Virus record (IMG/VR): IMGVR_UViG_3300032315_000675
Span: 1 to 64,000 of that record
Length of the DNA stretch: 64,000 bases
Strand: one strand, 5' to 3'
Source: a virus
Position numbers and translations under genes: made by a program. Of the stretch, positions 2,231 through 36,671 are shown piece after piece. Below the pieces are notes generated by a model. The model was not told where the DNA came from, ran no database searches, and saw nothing but the letters and a program-made list of their open reading frames with translations. The first letter of the stretch is position 1. Each line of letters starts with the position of its first letter.

Positions 2231-4941
2231 TGGCATACGTTGACGCAATCTTAGAACAGAGCGCGGATAAGGTTTACGTAGTAGAGCGCACTCCCGAAGG
2301 TAAGCGGGCCTATAAGGAATATAGTACCAACTATGTTTTTTATTACTCTGATCCAAAGGGGAAACAACGTTCTATCTACGGAGACCCTGTATCTCGTTTC
2401 TCTACACGCAAACGTGCGGAGTTCGAGAAGGAGCGCAGAATTCACTCTAACAAACAATTGTTCGAGAGTGATGTTAACGTGGTCTTTAGGTGTCTGTCCG
2501 AAAACTATCTAAACGTAGAACCCCCGAAGCTTCATACTTGCTTCTTCGACATTGAAGTGGACTTTGACCCGGAGCGCGGGTTCAGTCCCACAGATGACCC
2601 ATTCAATGCAGTCACTGCGATCACGCTTTATCTTGATTGGCTGGATCAACTGATCACACTTGCGATTCCTCCGAGACACATGACGGATGAGACTGCACAA
2701 GAGTTGATCAAGGACTTTCCGAATACATTCCTCTTCCGCAGCGAAGTCGAAATGTTCGATACGTTTTTCGATCTTATCGAAGACGCAGACGTACTCACTG
2801 GCTGGAACTCGGAAGGGTATGACGTTCCCTACATGGTGAATCGTGTTACTCGTGTCATGAGTAAGAACGATACACGCAGGTTCTGTCTGATGGGGCAGCT
2901 TCCGAAGCCTCGTACTTATGAACGGTTCGGTAAGGAAGAACGGACATACGACTTTGTTGGTCGTATTCATCTTGACTACCTACAACTCTACAAGAAGTAT
3001 AACTACGAATCTCGTCACAGCTATTCACTTGATGCGATCGGTGAGTATGAACTAGGTGAGCGCAAGACTCAATACGAAGGATCATTGGATCAGCTATACA
3101 ACAAGGACTTTAGAAAGTTCATCGAGTATAACCGTCAGGACACATTGCTTGTGTTCAAGATTCATAATAAGCTAAAGTTTCTTGACCTCGCAAATGCTCT
3201 AGCGCATGAGAACACGGTACTGCTTCCGACTGTCATGGGGTCAGTGGCAATGATCGAAATGGCAGTCATGAACGAAGCACACGCCCGTGGATTCGTTGTT
3301 CCGGACAAGAAGCGTAAAGAATCTCGAGGTGAGGTTTCCCAAGCGGCTGGTGCTTATGTTGCTACTCCGAACAAGGGCATTCACGAATGGGTAGGAGCAG
3401 TTGACATCAACTCGCTGTATCCTTCTGCTATTCGTGCATTGAACATGGCCCCTGAAACTATCGTGGGTCAGCTTAGGCAGACGCTTACTGATCAGTACAT
3501 GAATGAGAAGAGCCTGTCACTAGCTAAAGACAAGCGCAAGCAGAAGAACGGCGATGACGCAGAAGCAGTCACTGGTGCTATTCTTTGGGAAGGGCTGTTT
3601 GGCTCACTAGAGTATACTGCGGTGATGAATCAAGAGAGGGGAACTACTCTCACTATTGATTATGCTGATGGACGTAGCGAGGAAAAGTCTGCGGCTGAAA
3701 TCTGGAAGATGATCTTTGACAGTCATCGTCCTTGGATCCTTTCAGCTAACGGAACCATCTTCACTTACGAGAAAGAAGGAATCATTCCGGGTCTATTGTC
3801 TCGCTGGTACTCAGAGCGTAAAGAAACTCAAAAGCTAGCCAGAGAAGCGTATGGTACAGACATGTTTGAGTACTACGATAAGCGTCAGCTTGTTCGTAAG
3901 ATTTTGCTAAACTCTGCATACGGCGCGCTCTTGAACGAACACTGCCGATTCTACGACAAGCGTATCGGTCAGTCTGTCACATTGTCTGGTCGTCAGATTG
4001 TCAAGCACATGATGAGTCAAATCAATGAAATCGTTGATGGTACTTATCAGCACGATGGTAAAGCTATCGTCTACGGTGACACTGACTCCTGCTACTTCAC
4101 TGCATATCCTGCACTCAAGCCTCAGATCGACAAGGGAGAATTAGAGTGGAGCAAGGAACTATGTATTGAACTATATGATAACATCGCAGACCAAGCTAAT
4201 GATAGCTTCCCTGCTTTCATGGAGAAGGCGTTTCATGCTCCGCGCAAGAACGGTGAAATCATCAAAGCTGGTCGTGAATTGATCGGTGATCGTGCTATCT
4301 TCATCACAAAGAAGCGTTATGCTATCAACATCTTTGATAAGGAAGGCAAGCGTCAAGACAAAGAAGGTAAGCTAGGCTCTGTCAAAGCAATGGGTCTTGA
4401 TCTGAAACGTGCTGACACGCCGAAATATGTTCAAGACTTCTTGATGCAAGTGCTTTGCATGGTCATTCAAGAAGGTAAGGACCGTGATGCTGTTGTTGAC
4501 AAGATTCGTGAGTTCAAGACTTGGCTTTCTACACAAGATAGTTGGACTAAGGGTAATCCGAAATCTGTCAACAATCTGACTAATCACACTATCAAGTTTG
4601 AGAAGACCGGCAAGTGTGCAGTTGGTCATGCTAAGGCTGCTATCAACTACAACTATCTTCGTAGAATGAACGGCGATCAGTATAGTCAGAAGATCGTTGA
4701 TGGCATGAAGGTAATCGTCTGTTCTCTCAAAGATAACATGTTCGGCTTTACTTCTGTCGCATATCCTACAGACGAACTTAGACTTCCGCAATGGTTCCTT
4801 GAACTGCCGTTTGATGACCTAGACATGGAGCGAAAGCTAGTTGATGAGAAGATCGACAATCTATTGGGTGTCCTAAACTGGAACATCCGCGTAGATACTA
4901 ATACTAACAGTACTGCCAATGATCTTTTCAGTTTCGGTTAA
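2230..4941 (+). CDS. 43: Family-B DNA polymerase (T4 gp43-like)
   Basis: A 903-residue replicative polymerase, close to T4 gp43 in length. The 3'-5' exonuclease motifs are FDIEVD (about 106-111), WNSEGYDVPYM (Exo II) and YNRQDT (about 300-305, Exo III). The polymerase motifs are DINSLYPS (A, about 393-400), KILLNSAYG (B, about 557-565) and YGDTDS (C, about 614-620), followed by TKKRYAINIFD (KKRY). All catalytic Asp residues are present, so polymerase and proofreading should both be active. It would copy the phage genome in complex with the clamp encoded downstream. If the genome contains 7-deazaguanine, this enzyme must read modified template. Confidence 0.97.
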   Translation: MAYVDAILEQSADKVYVVERTPEGKRAYKEYSTNYVFYYSDPKGKQRSIYGDPVSRFSTRKRAEFEKERRIHSNKQLFESDVNVVFRCLSENYLNVEPPKLHTCFFDIEVDFDPERGFSPTDDPFNAVTAITLYLDWLDQLITLAIPPRHMTDETAQELIKDFPNTFLFRSEVEMFDTFFDLIEDADVLTGWNSEGYDVPYMVNRVTRVMSKNDTRRFCLMGQLPKPRTYERFGKEERTYDFVGRIHLDYLQLYKKYNYESRHSYSLDAIGEYELGERKTQYEGSLDQLYNKDFRKFIEYNRQDTLLVFKIHNKLKFLDLANALAHENTVLLPTVMGSVAMIEMAVMNEAHARGFVVPDKKRKESRGEVSQAAGAYVATPNKGIHEWVGAVDINSLYPSAIRALNMAPETIVGQLRQTLTDQYMNEKSLSLAKDKRKQKNGDDAEAVTGAILWEGLFGSLEYTAVMNQERGTTLTIDYADGRSEEKSAAEIWKMIFDSHRPWILSANGTIFTYEKEGIIPGLLSRWYSERKETQKLAREAYGTDMFEYYDKRQLVRKILLNSAYGALLNEHCRFYDKRIGQSVTLSGRQIVKHMMSQINEIVDGTYQHDGKAIVYGDTDSCYFTAYPALKPQIDKGELEWSKELCIELYDNIADQANDSFPAFMEKAFHAPRKNGEIIKAGRELIGDRAIFITKKRYAINIFDKEGKRQDKEGKLGSVKAMGLDLKRADTPKYVQDFLMQVLCMVIQEGKDRDAVVDKIREFKTWLSTQDSWTKGNPKSVNNLTNHTIKFEKTGKCAVGHAKAAINYNYLRRMNGDQYSQKIVDGMKVIVCSLKDNMFGFTSVAYPTDELRLPQWFLELPFDDLDMERKLVDEKIDNLLGVLNWNIRVDTNTNSTANDLFSFG

Positions 4942-31426: not shown

Positions 31427-32620
31427 ATGACTGATAAGATACAAAACTGTTCTTTCTGCGGAAACCACAAAGACCAAGTAAAAAAATTAATAGTAAGTGA
31501 AGACGTTTCGATTTGCAGCAGTTGTATTTCGTTATGCACCCAGCTACTGGAAGAAGAGAACAGTGAGGGGAAAAAGGAAATAGAATCTAAAAACTTCGAC
31601 GCATATAGCATTAAAAAACATTTGGATCAGTTGGTCATTGGACAAAATGACGCCAAAGAGGTGTTAGCAGTTGCGATATCTAATCACTACAAGCGAATCA
31701 ATCACCCGCCCAAAAACCTTGAGATTCAGAAGGGTAACGTTTTATTGATTGGTCCAACTGGATCAGGAAAGACTTTACTCGCTAGGGCAGTTGCAAAGTA
31801 TCTTAATGTGCCGTTTGTGGTTGCAGATGCAACTAGCCTTACTGAAGCAGGTTATGTAGGCGAAGATGTAGAGAGTATGATTTCGATGCTGCTTGCTTTG
31901 GCAGACAATGATGTTAGCAAAGCAGAGCGCGGAATCGTGTTTATCGATGAAATTGATAAGATTGCCCGCAAGAGCGAAAGCACTAGCATTACTCGTGATG
32001 TGAGCGGCGAAGGTGTGCAGCAAGCACTTCTAAAGTTAGTAGAAGGTACCAAGTGCAGAGTGAGTGCTGCGGGAAAGCGTAAGCATCCGCAGGGAGAATC
32101 AATCGAAGTTGATACTAAGAACATTCTATTCATTGCAGGCGGAGCATTCGTTGGACTTGAGAATGTTATTAAGTCTAGGACTCAAGGAACCTCTATCGGC
32201 TTCGGAGCTGACGTAAAGTCCAAAAACGAAAAGCCTAACATCAATCAAGTCACCCCCGATGATCTAACTCGTTTCGGAATGATTCCAGAATTCATCGGTA
32301 GGTTCACCACTACAATCACGCTACAAGAATTGACCCTACCACAACTGATAGAAGTCTTAACTGATATCAAGAACAGCTTTATTAAGCAGTATGCCTATCT
32401 GTTTTCGATTGATGATATCAATCTCTCGTTCACCGATCAGGCTATCGAAAAAATTGCACAGAACTGCATAGATTTAAAGACAGGTGCCCGCGGACTTCAT
32501 ACTGAGATTGAGCGTGTACTGATGCCGCACCTCTTCCACATCAATAAGTATAAAGAGAATAATCTAACTGATTTGATCATTGACGTAGAACATATCAATG
32601 AGCCTAAATCTATCTTTTAG
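31427..32620 (+). CDS. clpX: ClpX, AAA+ unfoldase of ClpXP
   Basis: 397 residues, complete. The zinc-binding domain uses Cys8, Cys11, Cys30 and Cys33. Walker A GPTGSGKT is at about 108-115, the pore loop [10 protein letters not shown] follows, and Walker B is GIVFIDEID at about 171. TSIGFGADV near 256 contains the IGF loop that docks into ClpP. A C-terminal small domain with sensor-2 ([11 protein letters not shown]) completes it. It should recognise and unfold substrates and feed ClpP (host or the phage ClpP at 36078). It lies 5 nt after the membrane-protein gene and is followed by sHSP, ClpS and ClpP. Confidence 0.95.
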
Positions 32621-32656: not shown

Positions 32657-32725
32657 ACTAAATAATATCGTAGATGCTTTAATAGGTCTACGATAATAGT
32701 CTTGCTAACACATAGGAGATAAAAC
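32657..32725 (+). promoter_or_regulatory. ROSE-like RNA thermometer leader of the small heat-shock gene
   Basis: After a late-promoter-like ACTAAATA (32657-32664), hairpin 1 pairs TATCGTAGA (32666-32674) with TCTACGATA (32687-32695). Hairpin 2 pairs TCTTGCT (32700-32706) with AGGAGA (32714-32719), with one bulged G, covering the Shine-Dalgarno AGGAG 7 nt before the ATG. UUGCU facing AGGAG is the hallmark of ROSE thermometers before small heat-shock genes. Heating should open the RBS. Confidence 0.65.
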
Positions 32726-33187
32726 ATGACTAATGCACATCTAAGCCTTCGTTCCCTCGACATTCCGTCGATTCATAAATTTGCTGTAGGATTCGACAAC
32801 GTCTTTGACGAACTTCTACGAATCAATGCACAGCAAGCAAACGGATCAAATTATCCCCCATACAACGTAGTAAAGCATGATGACGATCATTTCGCCATTG
32901 AACTTGCTGTGGCTGGGTTTAACATCGGGGACATCTCTATCACAGTAGAGAAGAATCTTCTAACCATCAAGGGTGAGCAAACACAAAGTCTTGATGAACT
33001 AGAGAAGGAAGTCGAATACCTGCATCGCGGTATTTCAGCCCGTAGCTTCTCTCGCACATTCACTTTGGCGGAGCATGTCGAAGTGACAGGGGCAACATCA
33101 GAGAACGGTATTCTCAATATTGAACTTGAGCGTAGGGTTCCTGACGAACAAAAGCCCAAAACAATTGCTATTTCGTACAATAAATAA
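32726..33187 (+). CDS. ibpA: Small heat-shock protein (Hsp20/IbpA type)
   Basis: 153 residues with an alpha-crystallin domain: YNVVKHDDDHFAIELAVAGF, ISITVEKNLLTIKGEQ, YLHRGISARSFSRTFTLAEH and GILNIELERRVP, then a C-terminal PKTIAISYNK tail. The I/V-x-I/V oligomerisation motif is represented by TIAI. IbpA-type holdases keep unfolded proteins soluble. Position between clpX and clpS suggests a coordinated folding/degradation module. The leader carries a thermometer-like fold. Confidence 0.93.
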   Translation: MTNAHLSLRSLDIPSIHKFAVGFDNVFDELLRINAQQANGSNYPPYNVVKHDDDHFAIELAVAGFNIGDISITVEKNLLTIKGEQTQSLDELEKEVEYLHRGISARSFSRTFTLAEHVEVTGATSENGILNIELERRVPDEQKPKTIAISYNK

Positions 33188-33199
33188 TAGAAGTAACAT

Positions 33200-33230
33200 A
33201 GTGCTTGCAGTCATTGTGGCTGCAAGCACT
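33200..33230 (+). terminator. Strong hairpin between ibpA and clpS
   Basis: Perfect 11-bp arms AGTGCTTGCAG and CTGCAAGCACT with a 9-nt loop, followed by TTCTTAAAGG. With no long U-tract it may be a partial terminator or an RNA-processing/stability element setting clpS level. Confidence 0.55.
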
Positions 33231-33249
33231 TCTTAAAGGAATCATATTA

Positions 33250-33558
33250 ATGGCAAATGCAGAACCAAAAGCTAAGATTAGACCCAACGTTGCTCTCAAG
33301 GAGCCGCCCCTATACAAGGTCATCTACATGAATGATGAACACACATCGATGGAATTTGTGATTGAAAGTCTATGTGAATATTTCAACTACAATCCGGACA
33401 CTGCTACGCAGATTACAGTAGATGTTCACGAAAAGGGTAGTGCAGTTGTTGCAGTTTTGCCTTATGAAATTGCAGAACAAAAGGGTATCGAAGTGACACT
33501 TGATGCACGTGCCCAAGGATTTCCGCTTCAGGTCAAAGTCGAAGCAGAATCAGACTGA
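33250..33558 (+). CDS. clpS: ClpS, N-degron adaptor
   Basis: 102 residues, complete ClpS core: PPLYKVIYMNDEHTSMEFVI holds the N-degron pocket Asn-Asp, TQITVDVHEKGSAVVAV holds the second-pocket His, and LDARAQGFPLQVKVE closes the fold. A roughly 15-residue flexible N-terminus is kept. ClpS hands N-degron substrates to ClpA. No ClpA is visible in this window, so it may redirect host ClpAP or act with the phage ClpX. The ATG at 33250 with AAAGGA is chosen over an upstream start inside the hairpin. Confidence 0.9.
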   Translation: MANAEPKAKIRPNVALKEPPLYKVIYMNDEHTSMEFVIESLCEYFNYNPDTATQITVDVHEKGSAVVAVLPYEIAEQKGIEVTLDARAQGFPLQVKVEAESD

Positions 33559-36077: not shown

Positions 36078-36671
36078 ATGAGCCTAGTCCCAATCGTACT
36101 CGAACAAACCAGCCGCGGCGAACGCAGCTACGACATTTATTCACGTTTGCTCAGGGAGCGTGTCATTTTGCTTGAGGGCGAAGTGCATGATCAGATGGCT
36201 AACTTGATTGTTGCACAGCTTCTTTATCTTGAATCAGAAGATTCAGATAAGGATATTTCTCTCTACATCAATAGCCCTGGCGGTAGCGTCACTGCTGGTA
36301 TGGCGATCTATGACACCATGATGTTTATCAAGCCGGAAATCACTACGATTGTGATGGGGCAGGCTTGTTCGATGGGTTCGCTTCTTGCACAAGCAGGTGC
36401 GCCCGGTAAGCGAATGATGCTTCCACACGCTCGACATATGATTCACCAGCCCTCGGGAGGCGCACGTGGTCAGGCTACTGATATGGAAATTCAAGTTCGT
36501 GAAATTCTTGCTGCGAAGAAGTCGTTGACCGAAATCTATGTCAAGCACAATAGCGGTGGTAAGACGTATGAGCAACTCGCCGCTGATATGGAACGAGACT
36601 ATTTTATGAGTGCAGAAGAAGCACGAATCTATGGTCTGATTGACAAGGTCGTAACCAGCAGGAATCCATGA
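36078..36671 (+). CDS. clpP: ClpP serine protease
   Basis: 197 residues, the bacterial length, with complete catalytic triad: Ser98 in GQACSMGS, His123 in MIHQPSGG and Asp174 in MERDYF. The [18 protein letters not shown] oxyanion and substrate strand is intact. It has a short propeptide-like N-terminus ([20 protein letters not shown]). It should assemble as a 14-mer and accept the phage or host ClpX. AAGGA RBS; about 107 bp of leader with a small CAATGA/TCATTG hairpin. Confidence 0.96.

Follow-up and report, generated by a model that had tools for sequence, protein, structure and literature searches.

ROSE elements are RNA thermometers found in the leaders of bacterial small heat-shock genes, in which a U(U/C)GCU motif pairs imperfectly with the Shine-Dalgarno sequence (SD) in the last hairpin. 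Those of rhizobia (Rfam RF00435, ROSE) and of enterobacterial ibpA (RF01832, ROSE_2) have three to four hairpins, whereas the short ROSE-like elements of Pseudomonas ibpA (RF02523, ROSE_3) have only two (PMC3669281). The latter are proven thermometers, in which hairpin II melts upon warming while hairpin I stays closed and the start codon is open at all temperatures (PMC3669281). In phages, the RNA thermometers on record are those of lambda cIII and SPbeta blyA, the latter of the fourU type (PMC10586365, which counts one earlier phage RNA thermometer besides its own). Neither is ROSE-like nor controls a chaperone gene, and each is known from a single phage. The gene hsp20 is one of the 25 core genes of T4-like cyanophages (PMC3037559), yet its role is unsettled, capsid scaffolding and host stress survival having both been proposed (also PMC7674155). 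We describe here a ROSE-like leader, inferred to respond to temperature, in front of a viral hsp20 gene and of its counterparts in nearly every related phage examined.

A two-hairpin leader in front of a viral hsp20 gene

The sequence analysed (the window) comprises the 64,000 nucleotides at positions 1 to 64,000 of the IMG/VR record IMGVR_UViG_3300032315_000675, a 77.4-kb virus contig with DNA polymerase, baseplate-wedge-like and endolysin genes. A sequence-only reading of the leader at 32657-32725 had proposed a ROSE-like RNA thermometer in which the second of two hairpins pairs UCUUGCU with AGGAGA around one bulged G. Our analysis confirmed this description of the sequence. The relevant features are as follows.

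31427..32620 (+), clpX-like gene (zf-C4_ClpX, E 6e-12; AAA_2, E 1e-32)
32657..32664 (+), ACTAAATA, T4-late-promoter-like box
32666..32695 (+), hairpin I, a stable stem with one bulged G (32676) and U.G / C-G pairs next to it
32697..32701 (+), UAGUC, 5' strand of a predicted alternative helix with 32728-32732 (GACUA) that closes the start codon
32699..32720 (+), hairpin II, anti-SD UCUUGCU (32700-32706, bulged G32704) paired with AGGAGA (32714-32719)
32714..32718 (+), Shine-Dalgarno AGGAG, contained in hairpin II
32726..33187 (+), hsp20 / ibpA-like small heat-shock protein gene, 153 aa (PF00011, E 2.3e-20)
33250..33558 (+), clpS-like adaptor gene (PF02617, E 1.5e-26)
36078..36671 (+), clpP-like protease gene (PF00574, E 7e-81)

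The full leader folded into the two hairpins at 20, 37 and 45°C. In hairpin II the predicted pairs are G32699.U32720, U32700-A32719, C32701-G32718, U32702-A32717, U32703.G32716, C32705-G32715, U32706-A32714 and A32707-U32713, with G32704 bulged and UUGCU at 32702-32706. Hairpin II alone is marginally stable, with a predicted energy of -6.4 kcal/mol at 20°C, -3.4 at 37°C and -2.0 at 45°C. Over 84 nt, the fold was better than all 200 dinucleotide shuffles (z -2.5). In this longer stretch, however, the minimum free energy structure at 37°C exchanged hairpin II for the UAGUC/GACUA helix that closes the AUG, at almost the same energy; related leaders have GUCAU against AUGAC instead. A Pseudomonas ibpA leader folded side by side showed the same bulged-G layout.

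We then compared the leader with the Rfam models. At gathering level nothing was found in the window or in 10 related loci. This is a threshold effect, since a relaxed Rfam-wide scan of 201 nt returned ROSE_3 (RF02523) as the top match, at 32668-32731, with 28.7 bits (E 2.3e-4) against a gathering score of 43. The alignment covered the full length of the model, including the bulged G of hairpin I. No match to RF00435 or RF01832 was obtained at E up to 10, whereas bacterial ibpA/hsp20 leaders used as positive controls gave ROSE, ROSE_2 and ROSE_3 above threshold, the Pseudomonas leader reaching 69 bits for ROSE_3. A family search with RF02523 in the genome itself gave no hit, not even in controls, and was uninformative. 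The element most resembles the short Pseudomonas type rather than the multi-hairpin rhizobial and enterobacterial type to which the sequence-only reading had compared it. It differs from the Pseudomonas elements by its location in a phage genome, by a late-promoter-like instead of a sigma-32 transcription signal, by a weaker, A+U-rich hairpin II, by a predicted helix closing the AUG, and by its score below the Rfam cutoff; we do not consider it a member of the current Rfam families.

The element is the usual leader of hsp20 in related viruses

In order to test whether the element is conserved, we searched IMG/VR with the Hsp20 protein. The search yielded 171 relatives, up to 89% identical, and 80 hsp20 loci were kept. 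Leaders were read directly and 25 of them were used to build a covariance model (R1). R1 detected the element directly before hsp20 in every locus with upstream DNA except one (locus L072), in which it lies before dnaK and the hsp20 start overlaps the dnaK end. In these loci, U(U/C)GCU was found within 20 nt upstream of the SD in 57 of 57 distinct hsp20 leaders with GGAG and in 3 of 3 dnaK leaders, but in 0 of 79 other leaders with GGAG. Three R1 hits before clpS (loci L040, 3458-3513; L054, 2369-2428; L058, 3449-3508) are plain hairpins without UUGCU; clpS genes of this phage group, including that of the window (33187-33250), have their own strong leader hairpins without the anti-SD motif. 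In the reverse test, a DNA pattern devoid of any protein information (TTGCTTA..AGGAG..ATGAC) was run over IMG/VR. Of 120 hits, 104 precede Hsp20 genes, of 28-57% identity.

We next asked whether the element occurs in named phages. Among 22 named phage genomes, a sample of the 509 phage records with hsp20, R1 matched before hsp20 in 20 at E up to 0.05. These include cyanophages S-PM2, S-CAM1, P-RSM4, S-RIM2, S-SSM4, S-CRM01, P-SSM7 and MED4-213, pelagiphages Mosig, HTVC008M and HTVC115P, methylophage Melnitz-3 (34.1 bits for ROSE_3), Agrobacterium jumbo phage Atu_ph07 and Pseudomonas phage MIJ3. The two phages missed were S-TIM5 and S-B68. In S-SSM4 (NC_020875.1, 116276-117474), the annotated hsp20 start (GTG) is too far downstream, the ROSE-like leader and SD pointing to an earlier ATG (ATGACAGGATCATTACG). 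The record OQ572409.1 (UNVERIFIED Pseudomonas phage Y7) carries a bacterial-type ibpA with a full ROSE_3 element (69 bits) and is probably host DNA in a mislabelled record. The sequence-only reading knew of no described phage-borne ROSE element, and none was found in our searches of openly licensed papers. Cyanophage S-CREM1 has been scanned with Rfam and Melnitz with a riboswitch scanner, without mention of ROSE in the parts of these reports consulted, as expected for scores below threshold.

Comparative evidence supports both helices

Plain MAFFT alignments misplaced the SD because of changes in loop length, and a same-length subset was used for independent pair counts. On a sequence-only alignment of 25 viral leaders, hairpin I showed compensatory changes in 7 of 11 pairs, with 94% of cells paired, whereas the core of hairpin II never varied, so that most pairs there carry no covariation signal within this set. 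On 85 distinct leaders aligned to R1, a procedure that leans towards the structure, all 11 pairs of hairpin I had changes on both sides (covariation score 0.490, against 0.152 for shuffled data) and the SD helix was 99.8% paired with one-sided changes. The flank of the SD helix could be tested independently. The base before CU(U/C)GCU and the base after AGGAG were complementary in 104 of 159 distinct leaders (U-A 74, C-G 17, A-U 13), against a shuffled mean of 74.2 (sd 3.7, maximum 88 of 5000 shuffles). Related sequences are not independent and these counts overstate the number of events. In S-TIM5, S-B68, ACG-2014e and S-WAM2, the SD itself has changed. By inspection of the sequence, the anti-SD strand has changed with it around a bulged G (CAC-G-CUU/AAGGUG, UAC-G-CU/AGGUA and GUC-G-CUU/AAGGAC). 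Local folding showed the stem for S-TIM5, ACG-2014e and S-WAM2, but not clearly for S-B68.

A late-promoter-like box precedes hairpin I

A TAAATA box was found within 26 nt upstream of hairpin I in 121 of 160 leaders, mostly 8-11 nt away, against 28 of 143 in the next segment upstream. TAAATA is not enriched in the window as a whole. T4 late-type consensus boxes have been reported for S-PM2, and a variant with C in place of A at -12 for Aeromonas phage Aeh1 (PMC2988020); the ACTAAATA box of the window, with C in second place, resembles this variant. Assuming the 6-nt spacing to +1 that is usual for T4 late promoters, transcription is predicted to start near 32670, at hairpin I, and the 5' UTR would consist essentially of the two hairpins.

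Many viral dnaK genes share the leader

The same ROSE-like leader was observed in front of many viral dnaK genes (loci L047, L050, L053, L055 and L072, about 970-1085; L309-L427; L428-L507, about 1440-1509), where the gene order clpX-dnaK-hsp20-clpS matches that of the window apart from dnaK. In an unbiased set, chosen by protein only, 48 of 67 distinct viral dnaK leaders have the motif. Most of the others have UUACU or UCACU, which would put an A at the bulge. A subgroup (L436, L438, L442, L444, L450, L462, L469, L474, L503 and L507) has UCUUACUU (or CUCACUU) before the SD, that is, an inferred bulged A instead of the bulged G. In 46 of 47 cases tested, a second element just downstream of dnaK precedes hsp20. 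Two unrelated chaperone families therefore share the leader in these viruses. The bulged-A type leader also precedes a groES-groEL pair downstream of dnaK in L507 (3069-3132), a contig listed as viral. A groES version of the DNA pattern gave no hits. A viral contig with dnaK (L470) also carries a permuted tmRNA (406-778, Rfam 139 bits).

Possible function of the leader

The most likely interpretation is that the leader is a short, two-hairpin, ROSE-like RNA thermometer. In this inferred scheme, a phage late-type promoter starts the mRNA almost at hairpin I, which acts as a stable scaffold. In the cold, hairpin II, or its near-isoenergetic alternative pairing the AUG, hides the SD and start codon; warming melts this marginal stem, destabilised by the bulged G and the U.G pair, and Hsp20 is translated. 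The temperature response is inferred from the anatomy of the element, its conservation and covariation, its near-exclusive link to hsp20 and dnaK, and the behaviour of Pseudomonas elements of the same layout. Against it, neither mean nor joint SD accessibility computed with ViennaRNA showed the SD to be more closed than in other genes or shuffled leaders, although the AUG was. Many of these phages come from natural waters, so that the useful temperature range is unknown. More broadly, it is somewhat more likely than not that many large T4-like phages run their own RNA-thermometer chaperone regulon, in which one late-type promoter plus a ROSE-like leader module drives hsp20 and, in many, dnaK as well (perhaps groES in one contig, with the bulged-A variant). 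Translation of phage chaperones would thereby be tied to temperature or folding stress during infection, independently of the host's heat-shock transcription. RNA thermometers would then be common in phages, and the leader would suggest that hsp20 is meant to be induced by heat or folding stress, with a bearing on how warming changes phage infection in lakes and oceans.

An alternative, tentative but possible and not exclusive of a thermometer, is that the leader is mainly a proteostasis sensor to which free Hsp20 oligomers bind, repressing their own translation until clients made during infection titrate them away. E. coli IbpA binds and represses its own 5' UTR through R93, a residue that occurs with RNA thermometers in alpha- and gammaproteobacteria (PMC10474464). 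The equivalent residue is Arg106 in the window's Hsp20; it is invariant in 16 diverse viral Hsp20s and present in 20 of 22 named phages, and a phage making much capsid protein could use such a control. However, R97/K98, also needed in E. coli, are often missing (INE in S-PM2, ARG or ARN in others), and the same leader on dnaK would require Hsp20 to act in trans. It is unlikely that the leader is a fixed structure for mRNA stability or basal tuning of late chaperone mRNAs, without sensing. The great stability of hairpin I at the predicted 5' end, the unremarkable predicted SD accessibility and the unrelated leader hairpins of clpS would agree with this view, but it does not explain the nearly invariant anti-SD with its bulged G, its covariation with the SD, or its restriction to chaperone genes in the loci compared. 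A Pho box for host PhoB has been predicted upstream of S-PM2d hsp20 (ATTCAAACTCGCTTAAATA; PMC10976474), but the same study found no PhoB binding and no phosphate response for this gene. This segment is the anti-SD strand of the S-PM2 element (locus L288, 531-597) and is conserved in phages of unrelated hosts. This reading is rejected on the published data. Finally, although any AGGAG in A+T-rich DNA finds some partner, chance pairing with a U-rich upstream stretch is ruled out by the motif counts in hsp20 and other leaders of the same loci, by the outcome of the motif-only scan and by the covariation.

Origin of the viral hsp20 genes

An alignment of 16 diverse Hsp20s was too variable for a genome scan, and a closer set was used to search for cellular relatives. 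The nearest cellular Hsp20s were about 45% identical to that of the window, which lies in a well-supported virus-only clade, and a recent copy of a host gene is therefore rejected for the window. Cyanophage Hsp20s form another clade, while those of pelagiphages group with SAR11 (Pelagibacterales). Interestingly, cellular SAR11 hsp20 genes have two-hairpin ROSE-like leaders of their own, which we did not find described (loci L202-L281, about 2940-3009, just upstream of hsp20; R1 27-47 bits). In these leaders, hairpin I with UCGCC...GGGGC is followed by CUUGCU and AGGAGG before hsp20.
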